A stretch of 64,000 bases of DNA from Topomyia yanbarensis (lineage: Eukaryota; Arthropoda; Insecta; Diptera; Culicidae): the NCBI RefSeq assembly GCF_030247195.1, contig NC_080671.1:71795412-71859411 (forward strand), given 5' to 3'. Below the pieces are notes generated by a model, which was given only the letters and a program-made list of their open reading frames with translations, made no database searches and was not told the origin of the DNA. This document shows, in pieces, positions 14,369-63,290 of this stretch. Made by a program: the position numbers and the translations under genes. The first letter of the stretch is position 1; each line of letters starts with the position of its first letter.

Positions 14369-16480
14369 GACGGTGCGGGCGGTAGAGTGGTAAGCGTGAC
14401 CGCCACTTATTCTAGTTGGTCTGAGTTCAATCCCAACCGAGGTCGTTGAGATTTTTCTAAGGTGAAAAAATCTGTGGTCACGTCTTCCTTCGGAAGGGAA
14501 GTAAAGCCGTTGCACAGTGGTCGGAAACGCCAAAAACGTGAACTTAATTCACTAGAGGCCAAACCATCGAATATATTCACAGGGTGTCTTTGGAGGAATT
14601 GTTCGTATAAATATTCCCCACAATCTGATAACAATTGAAATTAGGCATGGCTTACTATGATCGAACTAAAAAAATTAACTTTTTATACTGATGAGATAGA
14701 AAGTTGGTGTCTTCAACAAAGTTTTAGGAATGCTTATAGTGAAGAATTTTGTTGAAGAACTTGAGCTTGTAGGAGTAAAGGTTATCGATTTATAAGGCGT
14801 TTTCTATGACAACCCCCTTAAATCTAGTTTTCTTAATATAACTTTTTTTATTGTGACTTTTCGTGCAAACTATGTTCTAGACAAATGTGTAAGTAACAAA
14901 ACTACATAGTATTGTAGAAGACTGTATGTAAAAATATTCATTTTTTTCAAAGTTATTGAAGATTTTTACATTTTTTTACACCAACTTCAACTACGTATAA
15001 GAAAGAAAGGTGCAAACCAAAATACACGAACAGGCACTTTTTTACTTCTTTAAACTATGCACAATAAAGCTAAGAAGGTTTGGTGCGTGGCACTCTAGAA
15101 CCCTATGAATAGGGTAAGTTTACTTTATCATGTTTTTTGACTTTTTCCATATAAAAAACAGCAACAAAATTTTTTTCGATTTTTTCCGTAAAATTTAATA
15201 AATAATGGTATGGCATTCTTTTGTAAGCATTAAATTCATTATGACATGTCTATTTGAATATATATTAGTTTGGAATCTCCAATGATATTAAAAACTTTTT
15301 TATTTTTGCTTCTACGTTTATAAAATCTAAAATATTCAGGTATAAGTGAAAATAATACTTGTAATTGAACATTGAACCAAGAATTTCAAAAATTGGGGCA
15401 AAAAAACTTAAAAAAATTTTTTTTTGCTGATTTTTGTATGGAAAAAGTAAAAAAACATGATAAAGTAAGCTTACCCTATTCATGGGGTTCTAGAGTGCCA
15501 CGCACCAAACCTTCTTAGCTTTATTGTGCATAGTTTAAAGAAGTAAAAAAGTGCCTGTTCGTGTATTTTGGTTTGCACCTTTCTTTCTTATACGTAGTTG
15601 AAGTTGGTGTAAAAAAATGTAAAAATCTTCAATAACTTTGAAACAAATGAATATTTTTACGTACAGTCTTCTACAATACTATGTAGTTTTGTTACTTACA
15701 TATTTGTCTAGAACATAGTTTGCACGAAAAGTCACAATGAAAAAAGTTATATTAAGAAAACTAGATTTAAGGGGGTTGTCATAGAAAACGCCCTATAAAT
15801 CGATAACCTTTACTCCTACAAGCTCAAGTTCTTCAACAAAATTCTTCACTATAAGCATTCCTAAAACTTTGTTGAAGGCACCAACTTTCTATCTCATCAG
15901 TATAAAAAGTTAATTTTTTTAGTTCGATCATAGTAAGCCATGCCTAATTTCAATTGTTATCAGATTGTGGGGAATATTTATACGAACAATTCCTCCAAAG
16001 ACACCCTGTGAATATATTGGATGGTTTGGCCTCTAGTGAATTAAGTTCACGTTTTTGGCGTTTCCGACCACTGTGCGTTGGTCCCTGGTCCACGAGTTGA
16101 TGGATCGATATCTAGATTGTAGTCACCTCTGTGGCTTCTGTAATGAAGAAGTTGAATCCAACTTCTATACTTACTAACAAATATCGTCCTCCCGTGATAC
16201 TTGTGGAGTGTGCAGTAGTATATACGGCCTCTAGCTAAAGCAAGTATCGGACGAACATTTTCTTCCCCTTTCGTCCGCGATCTATGTTCGGGCCTGGGTG
16301 GCACCATTACCATTATCGATCAAAAAAACAGTTTATGACTACCAGGAGTTGCACAATGAAAGCTGTTTCTATACTCACAAGCATAATTATCTACTGATTC
16401 CCTGTGCAACCTCAGCTAGTGCAGATCGATAACAAAGTAGCAGCCAGGGGTGGTCGCATAAGCTCAAGCTCAAGGTAAAG
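14369..16480 (+). mobile_element. tRNA-headed SINE, ~544 bp, split by a Transib-like element
   Basis: The SINE occupies 14369-14512 and 16081-16480. The head has an A-box-like GGTAGAGTGG (14381-14390) and a B box GAGTTCAATCC (14423-14433). The body matches 62569-63109 along its length, and the tail is (AAGCTC)n. A 19-bp duplication flanks the whole. The second copy, which reads GCCGTTGGTCCC without a break, is a natural empty site for the element nested here. The body (from CCCGTGATATTTGTGGAG) is also found at 38568-38866 with another tail. Confidence 0.85.
14513..16075. mobile_element. Transib-like fold-back element, ~660-bp inverted arms
   Basis: The element begins CACAGTGGTCGGAAACGCC and ends with its reverse complement. 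The arms run to about 15175 and from about 15413, with an unmatched ~240-bp AT-rich centre. CGTTG flanks both ends (14508-14512 and 16076-16080). The 5-bp duplication and CACAGTG ends fit the Transib superfamily, whose termini start CAC(A/T)ATG-like and whose targets are GC-rich. An empty site in the SINE copy at 62.7 kb confirms the boundaries, although GTT with GCACAGTG ends would fit equally well. Frames on both strands in the arms are mirror images and encode nothing recognisable. Arm mismatches are few, so the copy is either young or gene-converted. Confidence 0.75.
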
Positions 16481-16603
16481 CTATATTATCAAAATAAAGA
16501 TCTTGGATTATAATAAAACATCCCTGAAGACATCATTTACAGATTTTCCGTGAAGCCGCTGTGTTATTGCGGAAACCTTTTATACATAACTTGCAACACG
16601 TCG

Positions 16604-17469
16604 CACAGTGGCTGGAGGCTGGCCAAAACCTCAAAAATTTATTTTTGAAATATTGATATTTTATATTTTTCCTAAATTTCTCATGTATTGAATAATGTAT
16701 ATCCAAAATTTTATGATCATTGGATAAGAACATGATTTTTGACATGAATTTAAACGTAGCAAAGTCCGGACTTTTTAATGATTTGCATTTCCGAAACCAC
16801 CATTGCTCTGTTCACTTCAAATGCATGTTGCTCTTTTGATTTTGGTCCAATTTTAGCACAACTAGTTTCATTGTGTAGAGGAACGAAAGAACTTCGTTAG
16901 TGAATAAAATTCATTTGGTAAATTTGCTTAGAACTATGACTTTTTAGTTTAAATATGTTTGAGGTGGTCAGATCAAAAATACTTCTTTCACTAATGTATT
17001 CTATACAAATTTCGGAATCATTTCGGAACGGTCATATAGTATACATTCTATGGGAAATAACCCCTACTTTTCGAATATCATCGTCTCGTTCTGCGCCTAG
17101 GTGCGCAAAAAATTTTAAGGAGATTTTGAAGCTTTGTTGCTGATGTGGAGGCGCATGGTGTTTTGTGTAAAATAGTTGAGCAATCTACAGTAAACTAACA
17201 CGTTATACAATGGATTTAAAGTAGTGTTCTTCATTTTTTATGATATTGCTGACATTGGTGAACAGTAACGAAAAATCTATCATGAAAACAGGATCATAGT
17301 TATAAGAAAGGTTCAATGACACTGTATGCAAAAATGCATTTAATATTTTACGACTTTTGACATCAAAAATGAGCTCAGCACCTCAAAATTAGCTTAAATT
17401 GTGATTTTCAGCCAATTTAGGTAACATTTGAGGTTTTGTCCGACTTTTGTTTGAAGACCCGCCACTGTG
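16604..17469. mobile_element. 866-bp Transib-like MITE with unequal 12/23-spaced ends, copy 1
   Basis: The ends are CACAGTGGC and GCCACTGTG, flanked by CGTCG on both sides (16599-16603 and 17470-17474). At the left end CACAGTG (16604-16610) is followed by 12 nt and CCAAAACC (16623-16630). At the right end, read inward, CACAGTG (17463-17469) is followed by 23 nt and ACAAAACC (17432-17439). The copy at 60306-61171 has the same length in the opposite orientation. No transposase is encoded. Transib assignment rests on the 5-bp GC-rich duplication and the CACAGTG ends. Without the element, a minus-strand frame from 17698 would continue to a stop near 16564, so it may sit in a former open frame. 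Confidence 0.75.
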
Positions 17470-17474
17470 CGTCG

Positions 17475-34548: not shown

Positions 34549-34753
34549 AGTTTTCTGAAAGATTTTTCAAACCCCAAAAAAGGCAAATGTTAAAATTAAG
34601 ACCTCAATAATCGAAATTGACGAAAAAAATCATTTAATGGTTAAAACGCTCAAATATAACCATTAAATGATTTTTTTTCGTTAATTTCGATTATAGAGGT
34701 CTTAATTTTAACATTTGCCTTTTTTGGGGTTAGAAAAATCTGTTTCAGAAAAC
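34549..34753. repeat. Inverted repeat of two SINE 3' ends, 13-nt loop
   Basis: The left arm (34549-34643) and right arm (34657-34753) are near-perfect reverse complements separated by only AAACGCTCAAATA. Shared motifs include GGCAAATGTTAAAATTAAGA and CATTTAATGGTTA. Both arms are 3' parts of the Feilai-like SINE, arranged tail to tail; transcription across it would give a long hairpin. Confidence 0.85.
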
Positions 34754-34850
34754 TCCCCAAACCTATGGATGGGGTTAGGATTCGAACCCAGGTGAGGTGT
34801 GTACAAGGCAATAGATTTAATGAAATAAATTTCGTTAATCGCAATTGTGA
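34657..34850 (-). mobile_element. tRNA-headed SINE (Feilai-like), minus strand
   Basis: On the minus strand GGGTTCGAATCC is a perfect pol III B box, followed by CTAACCCCA...ATAGGTT and a TTTTCTAACCCC...GGCAAATG...ACCTCTATAATCG tail shared with 41783-41945. The A-box end is degenerate. Its tail forms the right arm of the inverted repeat. Confidence 0.75.
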
Positions 34851-41945: not shown

Positions 41946-43991
41946 AACAAAACACACAGAAGGATGAAGAGCATACGATAAACTGGGAATTCAGCGTGGA
42001 AACGAGAGGTACTGTCACCCGAAAAACTTGTCCACGGCTTAAACGTTTTCGGGTACCGCCTATTGTACCATCCGGACGTTATAGTCATGATATTGCTCGT
42101 TTGACATGAGAGCAACAAAAGATTCAAACAGATACGTGGTACCTCTATTTATAACCTCTAGTATTTGATTGAGATAAGTAGATGCTTTCTTTTGACGGCT
42201 ATGCTTGCTGAGATTCATGAATGCTAATTTTCCCCTTTTCATGAACTTCTCAGTTTCATCGATTTTTAGTAGATTACTTTTATTGCATAAACATTAAATT
42301 ACTACAAATATCTAAGTTAGGCGTTTCTGAATCGGCTGGTGTATACATGAACAAAAGCCATCTAGTAATAGCGGAGTTATAAGAGCGTTAACCGTACATA
42401 ATGCATTACATAGGAGATATTTTGGATTTTAGAATAACACCTTGCCCTACATAGTGGAGTAAGGCATTTTTAAGAACATTATACGAACGAGCCACAATAT
42501 AGCTTTTACGCCACACACCCTTTTCCCTGCCCAACCATGTATCTGACATGAGCAAATATAAAAATACATTTTTCACCTTGCCGATGTGTCACGAAACTTT
42601 TACTTGAGGAAGCTAGAACATTTTGCTATACAATCAACACGAGATTTTGACGGAATGCAATCATACCTCTTCACTTAGGGTTTCTTTTCGAAACACTCTT
42701 ATTTTTCTTCTTCTCATTTTCATTACACTTTTTCAAATGAACTTTAATCACACACCACTGCAAAAATCATTCGCGAAACTTTAATCGTTTACTAACTAAA
42801 CTTCAAATGTTCTGCCACTGTGCAGATGACCGAAGGAAAATGTCCGAAAACTTTCAGTAGTGCGTTTTAATTTTCATTTATTAGAATTCCATTTATTCCA
42901 ATGTAAACAAGTGAGTCGGTAACTAGCAACAAGCATGCGTTCCTGGCTTCCACATATCTTCACCTTTATGTCAAAAACTGTCAGTTGAGACGCATGGTTA
43001 TTACTGAGATTAACTTTGCATAATAATTTTATGGCTGTAGAGTGGTTTCTCAGATAGTGAAGTATCCAGATTGTTTATAATTATGTTTTCAGCGTATTGA
43101 AATATGTCATTAACTGTTTCTGAGACTATTTCTTGATAACTTACGCAGTAGGTTGGTAAAACCAGTGAAACAGCACTGACTTACCGCAAATACTTGTCTA
43201 CTGTGGCTAAAGTTTGTCGTGCATCTGAAAAAGTAGATTAGTGGTTAGCTGGTTGTGTCCTGGGACGGGACATGCGAAGACGGTCTTCTTTTTCCCTCTC
43301 GGTTTTGTTGTTATTTTGCAAGGAAAAGTTCGCTCACAATATAATTTCAAGCAAAGGTCAATGATAGAGCTGTGCAGATGAGGTACAGAGTTGTGCCGAT
43401 GATGTAAGGAAAATGATGTAGCTTTCACATGACACAAAATAATGTTATCATTCATATGAATAATCTGATTATAGCTTCATTATCCGTAACTGTCAAGTAG
43501 TAGAGTTTTGTACCTATTTTTATCTAGAGACATTAATTTTTACCTAGAGCCGAAAATTAAATAACTGCTTACAAGAATTTTGAATTTGTCTTGTCATAGA
43601 CTAATAGATCGCAATCGATTGATCAATTTCACCGATCTGATATAAACAGAGCAATTGCATAACCTGTCTGCTGAGAAAGTTAAACTAATTTCTACGCACA
43701 CATTATTTTCCACAAATTTGAACGAGAGACGCAATGTTTCATAAGTTGTGCAGGTTATTTTTGCTATGGCAACCCAAAATAAGAGGAAAAGAGGCTTCTA
43801 GTTCTAGATTTTCTGTACTCCTTCCTGCGGGAAACGCGGAGACAGGTTACTATGATTATTTAACAGAACTTTGTTGGCTGTTTTTGAATTGACAGAAGTG
43901 TGCTACCACGGCTCTCAGAAGCGAGGCTTGCTACTCCGCGAATTCTGCGGTGACGTCAGAGAAATCGTTGAGATAAACAGACGGATTTCTA
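41946..43991. other. Stretch without a recognisable gene
   Basis: Short frames only (82 codons on the minus strand at 43207-43455 is the longest away from the SINE). GCCACTGTGC at 42814 resembles a Transib terminus but has no partner. Confidence 0.45.
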
Positions 43992-45430: not shown

Positions 45431-45758
45431 GTCTCTACGCATCGCTCGATCGAGATAGAAGTGTTTTGTTTTCGGTCTGTTGGAAAAAGAACAGTGCAGT
45501 AATCCGCGTTCAAGGTTATTTTGCCATTCTCTGCCTCTTCGAGGTTTGGACTTTTATTCTTTTGTGCGTGTGTTAACCGTTAGGCTACATTCCTCAACCT
45601 TTTGTTCGTAAAGCGAGGATTGAACAATAACCAGCTATTTAAGCTGGACTGGTGCGTCGTGGGAAACGAGTATACAGATAAGTGAAATCTACCTTTTTGA
45701 TACATTTACGGCTTTTTCCCGTCTGCGCGGGTGCTGACCCCGTGCATTGACGGTGTCG
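45431..45758 (+). promoter_or_regulatory. 5' UTR / internal promoter region of the retrotransposon
   Basis: The element starts GTCTCTACGCATCGCTCGAT and has no upstream host promoter. I-like elements are transcribed by pol II from an internal promoter in the leader. No TATA box is seen. Specific core motifs could not be fixed. Confidence 0.5.
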
Positions 45759-47072
45759 ATGGCTTCCTCCCCGGATGGCCAAATGGAGATCGAGTCGACT
45801 CCTAAGGCTCTCCCCCGACCCAAACAATATCCAGAGCTCTCGACCGGTCCCTTTGTGGTCTTCTTTCGGCCCAAAACAAAATCGCTGAATCTATTACAGA
45901 TTTCAAAAGACCTGACGGAACGGTTCACGGCTGTGACCGAAATAAAAAAGGTCCGCTCAGACAGGCTGAGGGTCGTGCTGACTAACTCAAAGCAGGCAAA
46001 CGATATTGCTTGCTGCGAGCACTTTACGAAGGACTATCACGTGTATATTCCAGCTGTAAAAGTACAGTCTGAAGGCGTTGTCACCGATGACAGTTTGACA
46101 TGCGAGGATCTGCTGCAGTACGGGGTTGGCCGTTTTAGAGACCGCATACTTCAGCCAGTGAAAATACTCGAGTGCAAGCGTTTGCACTCAGTAGTAGTTG
46201 CGGGGGATGGTTCAAAAACGTACCCCCAATCAAACTCTTATCGGTTGACCTTCGCTGGTACCGCTTTGCCAAATTACGTCCTCTTGCACAAGGTTCGTCT
46301 GCCTGTGCGTTTGTTTGTGCCGCGGGTCATGAATTGCACAAAGTGTAAACAATTGGGTCACACAGCCACCCATTGTAGCAATAAGGCCCGCTGTGGAAAA
46401 TGCGGGGAGAATCATCTAGATGATTCGTGCAGTGAGAATGCTGAGAAGTGTCCTTACTGTGCAGAGAATCTGCATGATATCTCGGCATGTCCCGCGTACA
46501 AACTACGCGGGGATAAACTAAAACGTTCCCTTGCGGGACGATCCGAACGTTCTTTCGCAGAAATGCTAAAGAAAGCTACACCACCAACCTCAACAAACAT
46601 CTATGCTCACTTGCCTCCTAACGAGGGCGAGGCTGATGACCCACAAGAGGGAACATCTACTAGTGCGCCTAGAAGTTATAGGAAGAGGAGGAACATTTCC
46701 TCTCCTAAAGTTCGTTGTAAAGGCCAGAAGGTATCCCTTGACGGGACTCCGAAAGTCACATCTATTGGAAGTGTTGCAACCAAACCGAAGCAATTAGCTC
46801 CTGGTCTCGGAGGATTAAACTCAGAGAAGGAGTTCCCAGCACTTCCCGGAACATCAAAAATCCCAAGTGTTCCTCTGTTTCAGTTCGAGAATAATCGCGG
46901 CACTGGAATTATCAAACTCTCGGACATTGTGGACTGGATAATAAAAACTTTCAATATAACTGATCCAATTAAAAGTCTTATGTTAGCTTTTCTCCCTACA
47001 GTAAGAACATTTTTGAAGCAGTTGACTGCTAAATGGCCCCTCCTTTCAGCGATTGTATCCTTCGATGGCTAA
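45759..47072 (+). CDS. ORF1p, nucleic-acid chaperone (gag-like) of the I-like retrotransposon
   Basis: This 437-residue RNA-binding protein is expected to coat the element RNA and form the ribonucleoprotein. After a Pro-rich N terminus, residues ~30-190 have the look of an RRM-type fold. Three CCHC zinc knuckles follow at about residues 193-244: CX2CX4HX4C, CX2CX3HX4C and CX2CX4HX4C. The C-terminal half is basic and Ser/Pro-rich, ending in a hydrophobic segment. The start is the ATG in TCGATGGCT; the frame is open a little upstream, but only with non-ATG codons. The stop TAA overlaps the ORF2 start as ATGGCTAA, which suggests termination-reinitiation. No frameshift or stop was found. The function is by family analogy. 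Confidence 0.92.
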   Translation: MASSPDGQMEIESTPKALPRPKQYPELSTGPFVVFFRPKTKSLNLLQISKDLTERFTAVTEIKKVRSDRLRVVLTNSKQANDIACCEHFTKDYHVYIPAVKVQSEGVVTDDSLTCEDLLQYGVGRFRDRILQPVKILECKRLHSVVVAGDGSKTYPQSNSYRLTFAGTALPNYVLLHKVRLPVRLFVPRVMNCTKCKQLGHTATHCSNKARCGKCGENHLDDSCSENAEKCPYCAENLHDISACPAYKLRGDKLKRSLAGRSERSFAEMLKKATPPTSTNIYAHLPPNEGEADDPQEGTSTSAPRSYRKRRNISSPKVRCKGQKVSLDGTPKVTSIGSVATKPKQLAPGLGGLNSEKEFPALPGTSKIPSVPLFQFENNRGTGIIKLSDIVDWIIKTFNITDPIKSLMLAFLPTVRTFLKQLTAKWPLLSAIVSFDG

Positions 47073-50000
47073 CTCATCGAACGAGGTCACGGATTTGATC
47101 ACTGTTCTACAGTGGAATTGCAGAAGTATCATCCCGAAAATCGATTCCTTCAAAATTTTAATAAATAATTTGAGTTGCGATGCATTTGCATTATGTGAAA
47201 CTTGGTTAACTTCCGACATAGATCTCAACTTCCACGACTTTAATATTATTCGCCTGGATCGAGACACCCCCTATGGAGGAGTGCTTTTGGGGATCAAAAA
47301 GCGCTATTCCTTCTACAGAATTAACCTTCCCTCGATAACAGGTATTGAAGTTGTCGCTTGTCAAGTAACAACCAAAGGCAAAGATCTTTGCATAGCTTCC
47401 ATATATATTCCCCCCAACACCGCGATTGGGCATCGCCGGCTACATGACATCATAGAATCCCTGCCTGCACCGCGACTAGTTTTAGGCGACTTTAACTCTC
47501 ACGGTGCGGAATGGGGTTGCCTTTATGATGATAACCGTTCCTCTTTAATTCACAATATTTGCGACAACTTCAACATGACAATTCTAAACACGGGTGAAAT
47601 GACACGGATTCCTCCCCCACCTGCGCGCCCAAGCGCATTAGATTTATCCCTTTGCTCGACCTCGCTAAAGTTAGAATGCGCGTGGAAGGTAATCCCTGAT
47701 CCCCACGGTAGCGACCATCTGCCGATCGTAGTCTCAATCAATAACGGCTCAAGGCCATTGGAAACAATCAATGTTTCGTATGACCTCACACGAAATATCG
47801 ATTGGAAGAGCTATGCTGCCGCGATATCCGACAACATCGAATCTACTCAAGAACTTCCTCCGGAGGAAGAGTACAGCTTTTTGGCTGGCTTGATTCTCGA
47901 CAGCGCGAATCAAGCTCAGACTAAGCCAGTACCCGGCGCGAACATACAAAAACGTTCTCCCAATCCCTGGTGGGACAAAGAGTGCTCAGACGTGTACGCA
48001 GAGAAGGCCGCCGCGTTTAAGACCTTCCGGAACGACGGGTTACCCGCTAGTTTTCGACAGTACGCGACGTTAGACAAGCGAATGAAGAGTTTGATGAAAG
48101 CCAAAAAACGCGGTTATTGGCGCCGGTTCGTCAACGGATTAACGAGAGAAACATCGATGAGCACTCTTTGGGGAACAGCCCGACGTATGCGAAATCGAAA
48201 CAGTACTAATGAGAGCGTGGAATATTCAAACCGTTGGATATTCGATTTCGCCAAGAAGGTTTGTCCGGATTCCGCCCCGGCACAGAAGATCTACCGCGTC
48301 GCGTCCCGTCACGATAACGCGAACGAAACACCTTTTTCGATGGTGGAGTTCTCACTTGCTCTCTTGTCGTGTAACAATAAAGCTCCAGGGCCAGACAGAA
48401 TCAAATTCAACTTGTTGAAGAATCTGCCAGACTCTGCCAAGAGACGCTTGTTGAACTTATTTAATAAGTTTCTTGAGGCTAACATTGTCCCACACGATTG
48501 GAGGCAAGTGAAGGTCATCGCCATCCAAAAACCAGGAAAACCAGCCTCCGATCACAATTCGTATCGACCGATCGCAATGCTGTCCTGTATCCGGAAGTTG
48601 TTCGAGAAAATGATCCTATTCCGCCTCGACAATTGGGTCGAAGCAAATGGCTTACTGTCAGATACACAATTTGGCTTTCGCAAAGGCAAAGGGACGAACG
48701 ATTGTCTTGCGTTGCTCTCAACCGAAATTCAAATGGCCTATGCTAGTAAAGAGCAGATGGCATCAGTGTTCCTAGATATAAAGGGGGCTTTTGATTCAGT
48801 TTCTATCAACATTCTTTCAGAGAAGCTGCACCAGCATGGTCTTTCAGCGACTTTAAACAACTTTTTACTAAACTTGTTGTGGGAAAAGCACATGCATTTT
48901 TCGCATGGTGACTTATCGACATCACGATTTAGCTACATGGGCCTTCCCCAGGGCTCATGTCTAAGCCCCCTGTTATACAATTTCTACGTCAACGACATTG
49001 ATGAATGTCTTGACAATTCCTGCACGTTAAGACAACTTGCAGACGATGGCGTGGTGTCTGTTACGGGACCCAAAGCTGTCGATCTACAAGGACCATTACA
49101 GAATACCTTGGACAATTTGTCTGCATGGGCTATTAAGCTGGGTATCGAATTCTCCACGGAGAAAACTGAGCTAGTTGTATTTTCAAGGAAGCGTGAACCA
49201 GCACAACTACAGCTTTTATTAATGGGTCAAACTATAGCTCAGGTCTTCACAGTAAAATATCTAGGGGTCTGGTTCGACTCGAAAGGTACTTGGGGATGCC
49301 ATATTCGGTATCTGAAACAGAAATGCCAACAAAGGATCAACTTTCTTCGTACAATAACCGGAACGTGGTGGGGTGCCCACCCAGGAGACCTAATTAGGTT
49401 GTATCAAACAACGATACTGTCGGTACTGGAATACGGATGCTTCTGCTTTCGATCCGCCGCGAACATACATTTCATCAAACTCGAAAGAATTCAGTATCGT
49501 TGTTTGCGTATCGCCTTAGGGTGCATGCAGTTGACCCATACGATGAGTCTCGAAGTCCTGTCGGGCGTTCTCCCGCTGAAAAATCGATTTTGGGAACTCT
49601 CATATCGATTGCTCATTCGATGCGATATCTTGAACCCGTTGGTGATTGAAAATTTCGAAAGGCTTGTTGAGCTCAATTCTCAGACCCGTTTTATGTCCCT
49701 GTACTTTGACTACATGGCGCAAAATATTAATCCTTCTTCTTACAATCCCAACCGTGTGCATTTCATAAATACTTCTGAATCTACTGTTTTCTTCGACACA
49801 TCCATGAAAGATGAGATTAGTGGAATTCCGGACCACATACGCCCACAAGTGGTTCCAAATATTTTTTATAATAAATTCCGAGAAGTCGACTGTTCTAAGA
49901 TGTTTTATACTGACGGATCAAACCTCGAAGGGTCCACTGGCTTCGGTATTTTCAATCAAAAGTTCACCGCCTCCTACAAACTCAGTGACCCTGCTTCAGT

Positions 50001-50751
50001 TTACGCCGCAGAACTAGCTGCTATTCAGTATACCCTTGGAGTCATTGACACATTACCCGCAGACCATTACTTCATCGTCTCGGATAGTCTGAGTTCTATT
50101 GACGCTATTCGCTCGATGAAACATGGAAAGCATTCCTCGTATTTTTTGGGGAAAATACGGGAGCTACTGAGTGCTTTATCTGACAAATCTTTCCAGATTA
50201 CCTTGGTGTGGGTCCCTTCTCATTGCTCCATTCCGGGCAATGAGAAGGCGGACTCCTTAGCTAAGGTGGGTGCCATTGAAGGTGACGTTTTTGAAAGACC
50301 AATTTGCTTCCACGAATTTTTCAGTATTACTCATCAGAGAACCCTCGAAAGTTGGCAAACCTCGTGGAGCAATGGGGAGCTAGGAAGGTGGCTACGTTCG
50401 ATAGTCCCTAAGGTATCGACGAAACCTTGGTTCAAGGGGATGGATGTGGGTCGTGACTTCATTCGTGTGATGTCCCGACTCATGGCGAACCATTACACGC
50501 TGGATGCACATCTCCGACGTATTGGGCTCGTGGAGAGTGGTATCTGCGCTTGTGGCGACGGTTATCACGATATAGAGCACATAGTCTGGGCGTGCACCGA
50601 GTACAGTTCCGCCAGGTCTCGGCTTATGGACACCCTCCGGGCCCGAGGAAGACCACCCAACGTCCCGGTTCGAGATGTGTTGGCAAGCCGCGATGTCCTC
50701 TATATGTCCCTAATATACACCTTCATAAAAACCATCAATATCCAACTTTAA
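47065..50751 (+). CDS. ORF2p: APE endonuclease, reverse transcriptase, RNase H
   Basis: This 1228-residue polyprotein carries out target-primed reverse transcription. The endonuclease (residues ~15-230) shows LQWNCRSI, the E of ALCETWL, LGDFNSHGAEWG (~140) and SDHLPI (~215). The RT (~420-720) shows APGPDRI, SYRPIAML, FGFRKGKGT, FLDIKGAFDSVS, GLPQGSCLSPLLYNFYVND (~626), LADDGVV (~657) and VKYLGVWFD. LADD in place of the usual F/YADD keeps both aspartates. RNase H (~944-1065) has YTDGS, AAELAAI, SDSLSSIDAI and WVPSH with NEKAD, so all catalytic positions are present. A CXCX8HX4C motif lies near residue 1160. The start is ATGGCT at 47065; an upstream in-frame TTG is not used. The frame is intact to TAA. 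Confidence 0.95.
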   Translation: MANSSNEVTDLITVLQWNCRSIIPKIDSFKILINNLSCDAFALCETWLTSDIDLNFHDFNIIRLDRDTPYGGVLLGIKKRYSFYRINLPSITGIEVVACQVTTKGKDLCIASIYIPPNTAIGHRRLHDIIESLPAPRLVLGDFNSHGAEWGCLYDDNRSSLIHNICDNFNMTILNTGEMTRIPPPPARPSALDLSLCSTSLKLECAWKVIPDPHGSDHLPIVVSINNGSRPLETINVSYDLTRNIDWKSYAAAISDNIESTQELPPEEEYSFLAGLILDSANQAQTKPVPGANIQKRSPNPWWDKECSDVYAEKAAAFKTFRNDGLPASFRQYATLDKRMKSLMKAKKRGYWRRFVNGLTRETSMSTLWGTARRMRNRNSTNESVEYSNRWIFDFAKKVCPDSAPAQKIYRVASRHDNANETPFSMVEFSLALLSCNNKAPGPDRIKFNLLKNLPDSAKRRLLNLFNKFLEANIVPHDWRQVKVIAIQKPGKPASDHNSYRPIAMLSCIRKLFEKMILFRLDNWVEANGLLSDTQFGFRKGKGTNDCLALLSTEIQMAYASKEQMASVFLDIKGAFDSVSINILSEKLHQHGLSATLNNFLLNLLWEKHMHFSHGDLSTSRFSYMGLPQGSCLSPLLYNFYVNDIDECLDNSCTLRQLADDGVVSVTGPKAVDLQGPLQNTLDNLSAWAIKLGIEFSTEKTELVVFSRKREPAQLQLLLMGQTIAQVFTVKYLGVWFDSKGTWGCHIRYLKQKCQQRINFLRTITGTWWGAHPGDLIRLYQTTILSVLEYGCFCFRSAANIHFIKLERIQYRCLRIALGCMQLTHTMSLEVLSGVLPLKNRFWELSYRLLIRCDILNPLVIENFERLVELNSQTRFMSLYFDYMAQNINPSSYNPNRVHFINTSESTVFFDTSMKDEISGIPDHIRPQVVPNIFYNKFREVDCSKMFYTDGSNLEGSTGFGIFNQKFTASYKLSDPASVYAAELAAIQYTLGVIDTLPADHYFIVSDSLSSIDAIRSMKHGKHSSYFLGKIRELLSALSDKSFQITLVWVPSHCSIPGNEKADSLAKVGAIEGDVFERPICFHEFFSITHQRTLESWQTSWSNGELGRWLRSIVPKVSTKPWFKGMDVGRDFIRVMSRLMANHYTLDAHLRRIGLVESGICACGDGYHDIEHIVWACTEYSSARSRLMDTLRARGRPPNVPVRDVLASRDVLYMSLIYTFIKTINIQL

Positions 50752-59699: not shown

Positions 59700-61373
59700 A
59701 CGTCACCTATCTGCAATGATGGTAAGACTGACGTTTCCGGAAGAAAGAGAAGGAGAAATTTGCGAGATAGGAAGCAAGAAAAGAGGAATGAGAGAAGATA
59801 GCGAGAGTCTGGCAGAAAGTATAGGACAGTGTCGGAAAGTTGAAGAAAAAGTGCGTTTGCCCGAAGGTCGAAAAAAGGAAAAGAGACCTCGTGTATGGGA
59901 CTGATTGGTCATCCGTGCTGCCTGTCCGCTGGGCCGAGTCGAGAGTACTCCTGTCCGGATCCAAGTGACATCGGATACTGCGTCGACCGAAGGAAGGTTC
60001 CCAACGACGAAAGCGTTTCGAAGACGGAAAAGGTTGGCGTGTTACGCCGAACCAGACTTAAGCCGGCGAGCTCCGTGCTGGTGGCCAACGAGTACCCGTT
60101 TACGTTGGGTCACACGCTGCGGGAGGACGGTAACCACAGCTTTGGAGGTGAGGGTTCTGGTGAGGTCCGGCGGGAATTCCCCCGCTTGCTAGAGCCCAAT
60201 ATCCGATGCGTTGCCGCCCCGTTAGCGAGCACGTGGGACGTCGACAGACAACGGCGAAAGAAGCACTCAAGGCAGTACCACGATTCTGGACACGCCGTGA
60301 CACCGCACAGTGGCGGCTCTTCAAACAAAAGTCGGACAAAACCTCAAATGTTACCTAATTTGGCTGAAAATCACAATTTAAGCTAATTTTGAGGTGCTGA
60401 GCTCATTTTTGATGTCAAAAGTCGTAAAATATTAAATGCATTTTTCCATACAGTGTCATTGAACCTTTCTTATAACTATGATCCCGTTTTCATGATAGAT
60501 TTTCCGTTACTGTTCACCAATGTCAGCAATCTCATAAAAAATGAAGAACACTACTTTAAATCCATTGTATAATGTGTTGGTTTACTGTAGATTGTCTAAA
60601 TATTTTACACAAAACACCATGCGTCTCCATATCAGAAACAAAGCTTCAAAATCGCCTTAAACCTTTTTGCGCACCTAGGCGCAGAACAAGACCATGATAT
60701 TCGAAAAGTAGAGGTAATTTCACATAGAATGTATACTATGTGACTGTTCCGAAATGATTCCGAAATTTGTACAGAATACATTAGTGAAAAAAGTATTTTG
60801 GATCTGACCACCTTAAACATATTTAAACTAAAAAGACATAGTTCCAAGCAAATTTGCCAAATGTATTTTACTCATTAACAAAGTTCTTTCGTTCCTCTAC
60901 ACAATGAAACTAGTTGTGCTGAAATCGGACCAAAATCAAAAGAGCAACATGCATTTGAAATGAACAGAGCAATGGTGGTTTCGGAAATGAAAATCATTAA
61001 AAAATCCGGACTTTGGTACGTTTAAACTCGTGTTAAAAATCGTGTTCTTATCCAATGATCATAAAATTTTGAATATATATCATTCAATACATGAGAAATT
61101 TAGGAAAAAAATAAAATATCAATATTTCACAAATAAATTTTTGAGGTTTTGACCAGCCTCCGGCCACTGTGCGCCGCGATCGAGATCGGAACACAGGAAC
61201 TCTGTACCAGATATTGGATACCAGCTCAGGAGGAACCAGACGGTAGGAGTGTGGCAAGTACCCTCTTCGTGCATGAAGCTCATGTGTTCCAGAACGGCCG
61301 CAACGACCCCCCCCCTTTCCCATCTTCCTTTCCCTTCCACCCTTTCTTAACCGACGATGTAAATCTTAAATAA
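59700..61373 (+). other. Coding-like segment split by a Transib-like MITE, unidentified
   Basis: Outside the nested element (60306-61171), the sequence is GC-richer and has long plus-strand frames: 59716-59904 (62 codons, Glu/Lys/Arg-rich) and 59895-60386 (163 codons, of which the end lies inside the MITE). If the MITE and one 5-bp duplication are removed, one frame is open from about 60157 to 61373 across the junction. The right part ends with a C/T-rich tract and AAATAAATATG, like a 3' end. No domain is recognised. It may be a decayed transposable-element ORF or host exon. Confidence 0.3.
60306..61171. mobile_element. 866-bp Transib-like MITE with unequal 12/23-spaced ends, copy 2
   Basis: It has the same length as 16604-17469, in opposite orientation, and appears about 95% identical by eye. 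The left end has CACAGTG (60306-60312), a 23-nt spacer and ACAAAACC (60336-60343). The right end, read inward, has CACAGTG (61165-61171), a 12-nt spacer and TCAAAACC (61145-61152). The flanks CACCG (60301-60305) and CGCCG (61172-61176) agree at 4 of 5. No transposase is encoded. Confidence 0.75.
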
Positions 61374-62163: not shown

Positions 62164-63290
62164 TCACACAGTAGAACCGCAAGAGGTTGCTACATCTAGA
62201 CGGCGGCGGAAACGATCAAAGACGATGCACTTATCATCAGATAACGACGGTTCGAGCTCGTTGGGTACGAGCCAGTTTGCCAACTCATGTGCAATACTGT
62301 TAGAATAGAGAGTTACATCTAACACCTCTTCTCTGCCAGATCGTGCAAATGTTGGGTGATTTCTTATGTTAAGCATATGCAGATTTGTGCTGCTGAACTA
62401 GTCCATAAATTTGGTGCCTCTCAAAGTGATATCTTAGGTGCCCCAAACTATGTGGTGGGTATTTGCGTCACTGCCGATTATGAGTGGAAATTCATTGCTG
62501 AGATTCTTAGAAGGTGATGATTCATGATGCGGTAAATATACTCTCCTGTTTAGATTATCATCAGCCATAACGGCGCCGGTGGTTGAGTGGTAAGCGTGAC
62601 CGCCACTCATTCCAGTTGGCCTGGGTTCAATTCCAGCCGAGGTCGTTGAGATTTTTCTGAGGTGAAAAAAGCTGTGGTCACGTCTTCCTTCGGAAGGGAA
62701 GTAAAGCCGTTGGTCCCCGGTCCATGAAATTGGTGGATCGATATCTAGTCCAGCTAGTGGATTCATCTCTCTGGCGTCGGTAAAGAAGAAGTATATCCAA
62801 CTTCTAAACTCTTACTAACAAAAATATCCTCCTCCCGTGATATTTGTGGAGTGCGCAGTAGTATACGGCCTCTAGCAAAAGCAAGTATCGGACTAACCAT
62901 TCCTTCCCTTTCCTTCCGCGATCTACGTTCGGGCTTGGCCGGCGCCGGTATTGATAAAAAAAACACTTTAGGATTACCAGGAGTTGCACATTGAAAGATG
63001 TTTCGCTACTCTCAAGCATAATTATCTACTGATTCCCTGTGCAACTTCAGCTAGTCCCGATCGATAACGGAGTAGCAGCCAGGGGTGGTCGCACAAGCCC
63101 AAGCTCAAGCTCTCCTGTTTAGATTATCATCAGTCATGTCAGTAACTGTGACAGCACAAAAATTACGAGTTGTGAGGTCGGATAGAAGATATTCGTCAAT
63201 AGCACGATTCACAAGTTTGCATACACGAAGCATTTCACGTGGATTTGTCATGCCGTTTTGTTGTAAGCTTCGAAAACGGGGTTAAATAGC
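62164..63290 (-). pseudogene. Decayed non-LTR endonuclease domain, split by a SINE
   Basis: Reading the minus strand from 63290, the frame gives LRVCKLVNRAIDEYLLSDL, then (after the SINE at 62569-63109) RRVYLPHHESSP, PLIIGSDANTHHIVWGT, a stop, and SGREEVLDVTLYSNSIAHEL to about 62164. This is the order of an APE endonuclease of a LOA/R1-like non-LTR element, with the SDANXHHXXWG catalytic motif and the EVLD(L/V)T motif. The SDHXXI end has become SDDKCI, losing the catalytic His. A stop follows the VWGT motif. RT is absent. It is a dead fragment of another clade than the intact element. Confidence 0.8.
62569..63109 (+). mobile_element. tRNA-headed SINE, 541 bp, uninterrupted copy
   Basis: The A box TGGTTGAGTGG (62580-62590) and the B box GGTTCAATTCC (62624-62634) are good pol III matches. 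The body equals that of 14369-16480 and the tail is AAGCCCAAGCTCAAG. A direct repeat of at least 24 bp (62541-62564 and 63110-63133, starting CTCTCCTGTTTAGATTATCA) flanks it; extended to 28 bp it has one mismatch. It is inserted in the decayed endonuclease. Confidence 0.88.

Follow-up and report, generated by a model that had tools for sequence, protein, structure and literature searches.

Do the two ends of a short insect transposon work as a 12/23 pair? The question is raised by an element, A1, in the window (the whole 64-kb stretch of DNA that was analysed). An earlier note on this DNA had described A1 as carrying CACAGTG, 12 nt and a box at its left end, CACAGTG, 23 nt and a box at its right end, and a CGTCG duplication around both. 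All of this is borne out in A1, and the layout is repeated in a second copy, A2. A nearby element of another family, B, provides a comparison. The features are as follows.

16604..17469, plus strand: element A1, non-autonomous, Transib-type, 866 bp, 67% A+T
16599..16603, no strand: left target-site duplication CGTCG of A1
17470..17474, no strand: right target-site duplication CGTCG of A1
16604..16610, plus strand: left heptamer CACAGTG of A1
16623..16630, plus strand: left box CCAAAACC of A1, 12 nt from the heptamer
16624-16635, plus strand: left copy of the shared block CAAAACCTCAAA in A1, beginning within the left box
17463..17469, minus strand: right heptamer CACAGTG of A1
17442..17450, minus strand: right proximal box ACAAAAGTC of A1, 12 nt from the heptamer
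17432..17439, minus strand: right distal box ACAAAACC of A1, 23 nt from the heptamer
17427-17438, minus strand: right copy of the shared block CAAAACCTCAAA in A1, beginning within the distal box
60306..61171, minus strand: second copy A2, inverted relative to A1, 866 bp, flanked by CACCG and CGCCG
14513..16075, plus strand: element B, Transib-type foldback, 1563 bp, arms of about 677 bp that are 97.3% alike, duplication CGTTG

Evidence for transposition and the Transib assignment

The heptamer as such is not enriched in the window: CACAGTG occurs 8 times against 5.06 expected, and 14 of 100 shuffles reach 8. In a test of pairs, 21 plus-strand CACWRTG sites were combined with 16 minus-strand ones at distances of 60-5000 bp and 5-bp flank repeats were recorded. 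An exact flanking repeat is found for two pairs only, A1 (CGTCG) and B (CGTTG), and for none at any of 40 control offsets in which the flanks were shifted by 20-215 nt, which rules out chance heptamer pairing. When one mismatch is allowed there are four pairs (A1, B, A2 and 14513/17469, the last a false cross-pair), and the shifted controls yield 0-3; the A2 repeat taken alone is accordingly weak. The A2 flanks are identical at 4 of 5 positions (CACCG vs CGCCG) and would fit an original CGCCG after a single CG-to-CA change. For B, a paralogous empty site is present at 62708-62712, which reads through CGTTG and whose sides match the flanks of B. An isolated CACAGTGGC lies at 42816-42822 on the minus strand; its best nonamer-like box scores 4/9, and no partner with a 5-bp repeat was found for it.

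CACAGTG is present at all four A ends. In the available portions of the respective papers, CGNCG is given as the Transib insertion target (PMC4735498) and a 5-bp duplication is stated for Transib in general (PMC7204232). A1 has CGTCG on both sides, A2 has CGCCG on one side and CACCG on the other, and the CGTTG of B differs from CGNCG at one base. The superfamily assignment of A rests on its ends, duplication and target. The view of the earlier note that A is a Transib-like non-autonomous insect element is supported, and the element is mosquito-like.

No autonomous relative of A was found, and no transposase in a Pfam scan of 10 of the 133 stop-free frames of at least 70 aa in the window; two hits in that scan, PXB (E 0.083) and Exo_endo_phos_2 (E 0.0073), were weak and fell short of the curated cut-offs. 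A Pfam scan of eight frames, six in A and two in or overlapping B, gave no match, and for A1 this amounts to zero matches in 6 scanned of its 12 stop-free frames of at least 35 aa. A MITE is by definition short, non-coding and present in many copies. What we find in A is a length of 866 bp, a longest stop-free frame of 69 aa (counting frames inside the element) and two copies within 64 kb.

A1 and A2 are of equal length and have identical end spacings, with 53 mismatches between them. Patterns for the left end, the right end and the interior of A, and one for B, had no matches in a viral contig collection; the left-end and right-end A patterns had none in prokaryote genome contigs, and blastn against plasmids and phages gave no match. 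These zeros are not evidence of rarity, because the collections consist of viruses, prokaryotes, plasmids and phages.

The window holds other repeats as well. A two-ORF non-LTR retrotransposon occupies 45738-50751, with frames of 444 and 1241 aa stop to stop (1228 aa as query); its best match, at 74% identity, is an unnamed database protein, and it is related to proteins named I-11 aae. Among the best 120 of 207 matches, the nearest named relatives of its second protein are mosquito proteins, from Aedes albopictus (69% identity, 64% of the query covered), Topomyia yanbarensis (66%, 59% covered) and Anopheles marajoara (51%, 99% covered). The DNA thus probably comes from a culicine mosquito. 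An imperfect palindrome at 34549-34754, some 206 bp long and with 89.5% self-complementarity, is perhaps another small foldback element.

Box layout at the ends of A and B

In both copies the layout reads CACAGTG-12-YCAAAACC at the left and CACAGTG-23-ACAAAACC at the right. The left box after 12 nt is CCAAAACC or TCAAAACC, the two differing at the first base only, and the spacers are 12 and 23 (plus or minus 1) in 2/2 copies when the register of the earlier note is kept. That note overlooked, however, that the right end also has ACAAAA exactly 12 nt after the heptamer. At a fixed place, nt 20, ACAAAA has a frequency of 0.0011, a figure computed post hoc, the box having been seen first. CAAAA starts at nt 21 in 4/4 A ends and recurs further in, from nt 29 in the left ends and from nt 32 in the right ends; random places have a CAAAA start at 19-21 with a frequency of 0.011, likewise computed after the boxes were seen. 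The asymmetry claimed for A thus stands in so far as a box is displaced in both copies, and is weakened in so far as it was taken to be exclusive: since the right end carries a box at 12 as well as at 23, setting a pure 12-end against a pure 23-end is too clean.

What the two ends have in common is longer than the CAAAACC octamer that had been pointed out. The shared block is the 12-mer CAAAACCTCAAA, which runs from nt 21 on the left and from nt 32 on the right; when 4000 random pairs of 51-nt stretches were compared, 2 had a word of at least 12 in common. The block is displaced by 11 bp between the ends, about one helical turn, and this displacement is independent of register. With the left box, the right proximal box has only CAAAA in common and the distal box 12 bases, and on grounds of homology it may be the distal box that works. 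The shared block (16624-16635 and 17427-17438) includes the word CCTCAA, with which the inner TIR element of the algal AanRAGL begins according to excerpts of PMC9435367; this likeness may be due to chance.

The figures 12 and 23 themselves depend on register. Scored against the nonamer reference ACAAAAACC, the left end of A1 is best at a spacing of 11 (7/9) and reaches 6/9 at 12 and at 20, the left end of A2 ties at 6/9 for spacings of 11, 12 and 20, and the right ends score 7/9 at 12 and 23 alike. Random places in the window reach 6/9 at a frequency of 0.020 and 7/9 at 0.0030. With a box that matches the RSS nonamer at just 6-7 of 9 positions, the description of the ends as exact RSS mimics is not supported.

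Element B has symmetric ends, CACAGTGGTCGG, with CAAAA from nt 19 at both. The four A ends agree with B at 9-11 of the first 12 nt and at only 9-10 of the 28 nt that follow, a pattern to be expected of related transposases that mainly read the outer part. From B it is clear that this genome has seen movement of a CACAGTGG-ended element whose ends are symmetric; since B is a different, non-autonomous family, asymmetry in A is not thereby refuted. Neither the two A copies nor the two ends of B are independent observations.

How the ends may be read

We consider it probable that A is a Transib-type cut-and-paste element, non-autonomous and moved in trans, in which CACAGTGG and a CAAAA box are read and no strict 12/23 rule applies; its host genome is probably that of a mosquito. 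A would be mobilized by a Transib transposase encoded elsewhere, a dimer of which would read each end via the terminal CACAGTGG block, with the A-rich CAAAA box some 12-13 nt inside the heptamer as a putative second contact. Cutting at the heptamer edge would be followed by insertion into a CGNCG-like target with a 5-bp duplication. On the right end, the second box 11 bp further in is the one that agrees with the left-end box over the longer stretch, and it is this extra inner box that would give A its 12/23-like look. The extra box may tune binding and probably sets no strict 12/23 rule. In keeping with this reading, Subgroup II Transibs include both symmetric and asymmetric TIRs, as stated in the accessible part of PMC9435367.

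A closer parallel to V(D)J recombination, in which the left end is bound via the box at 12, the right end only via the homologous box at 23, and synapsis needs one of each, is the reading put forward in the earlier note; it is conceivable and in our judgement rather unlikely. It draws support from the displacement of CAAAACCTCAAA in both copies, from reports of Transibs with asymmetric 12/23 (plus or minus 1) ends in Anopheles gambiae and Drosophila (PMC8355894) and from ProtoRAG, which according to part of PMC8289069 prefers its own asymmetric 27/31 pair. Against it stand the box at 12 on the right end and the symmetry of the nearby Transib-type element B. Several published statements also weigh against it: mouse RAG1 without RAG2 is indifferent between 12/23 and 12/12 pairs, showing no preference for the former (PMC8355894), and Transib is without RAG2 (excerpts of the preprint PMC11844651); invertebrate RAG-like complexes are expected to depend on the outermost 15-17 bp, with asymmetry making rather little difference to them (available text of PMC7204232); and in some Transib ends the heptamer and the nonamer equal the RSS consensus but the spacers vary in length (extracts of PMC6941560).

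It is improbable, in our view, that A has plain Transib termini whose A-rich boxes, in an element rich in A+T, are what is left of a longer terminal repeat, with no binding role and a coincidental 12/23 spacing. The conservation of the ends is in keeping with such a reading: between A1 and A2 there are 3 mismatches in the terminal 75 bp and 50 in the 791 bp of the interior (Fisher p=0.61, for two related copies only), and we have accordingly dropped a claim of selection on the boxes, the ends being no better conserved than the interior. The heptamers show no changes between the copies; the two 12-mers show none in 24 positions, which is expected 22% of the time at such divergence. Conservation of the spacing is likewise not demonstrable, because there are just two related copies. 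The modest nonamer match and the best register of 11 at the left end of A1 point in the same direction. The scarcity of shared words of at least 12 in random pairs, the low frequency of ACAAAA at exactly nt 20 and the Anopheles Transibs of like layout (in the available text of PMC8355894) all argue against it. That A belongs to a superfamily other than Transib that also has CAC ends and makes 5-bp duplications is very improbable. In favour of this, no transposase was seen in the scanned frames, which cover part of the window, and the superfamily is judged from ends, duplication and target only; against it, a full CACAGTG at both ends, a CGNCG target and a 5-bp duplication fit Transib.

As to how a right end with two boxes might have come about, an 11-bp tandem duplication of the A-rich box could have given a 12-type end the second spacing as well (12+23), and the right end of A would be a preserved intermediate. 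The right end reads ACAAAAGTCGG and then ACAAAACCTCA, with the starts of the ACAAAA boxes exactly 11 bp apart, and some 6-mer is repeated 11 bp later at about 1% of random places in an end-sized stretch. Since the two 11-bp units agree at just 6 of 11 positions (counted by eye), the duplication is a suggestion only, and we regard it as doubtful.

Comparison with published Transib and RAG-like ends

The earlier note held that so exact an asymmetry in an insect MITE would bear on the origin of the 12/23 rule. That the asymmetry is new to insect Transibs is not supported, as such ends are already in print: in its available text a 2021 review (PMC8355894, citing Kapitonov and Jurka 2005) lists 12/23 asymmetric ends for Drosophila melanogaster Transib5 and for Anopheles gambiae Transib2, N1, N2 and N3. 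A resembles these five elements, four of them from a mosquito, in having 12/23 (plus or minus 1) asymmetric ends, the likeness being one of description. This makes A one more instance of a pattern already reported, and alone it does not show how the 12/23 rule arose.

The following comparisons are drawn from parts of the cited papers. HzTransib and other symmetric Transibs share heptamer-like ends with A but differ from it in their symmetric TIRs with spacers of 20-22 bp, and HzTransib has little or no nonamer similarity (PMC8289069, PMC8355894). ProtoRAG and AanRAGL are like A in that their ends are bipartite and asymmetric; unlike A, they have spacers of 27/31 and 4/13, respectively, and, apart from the CCTCAA word, other inner sequence, and they encode RAG1-like and RAG2-like genes (PMC8289069, PMC9435367). 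With the vertebrate 12-RSS and 23-RSS, A shares the consensus heptamer CACAGTG and an A-rich box at 12 and 23 (PMC8289069). It departs from them in its nonamer of 6-7/9, in that its sites are transposon ends and in that both spacings occur on one end.

Among the papers listed in the literature searches, no title or abstract opening names the A family, and we do not claim that it is absent from print. Nor do we claim novelty for the double box on the 23-type end, for which no description was found in the literature text searched, published alignments being in figures.

A adds a probable culicine mosquito case to the few Transibs reported with 12/23-like ends. If the 11-bp duplication is true, it would be a simple route from symmetric ends to 12/23-spaced pairs. 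The end with two boxes points to a concrete way of testing which of them is read by a Transib transposase.
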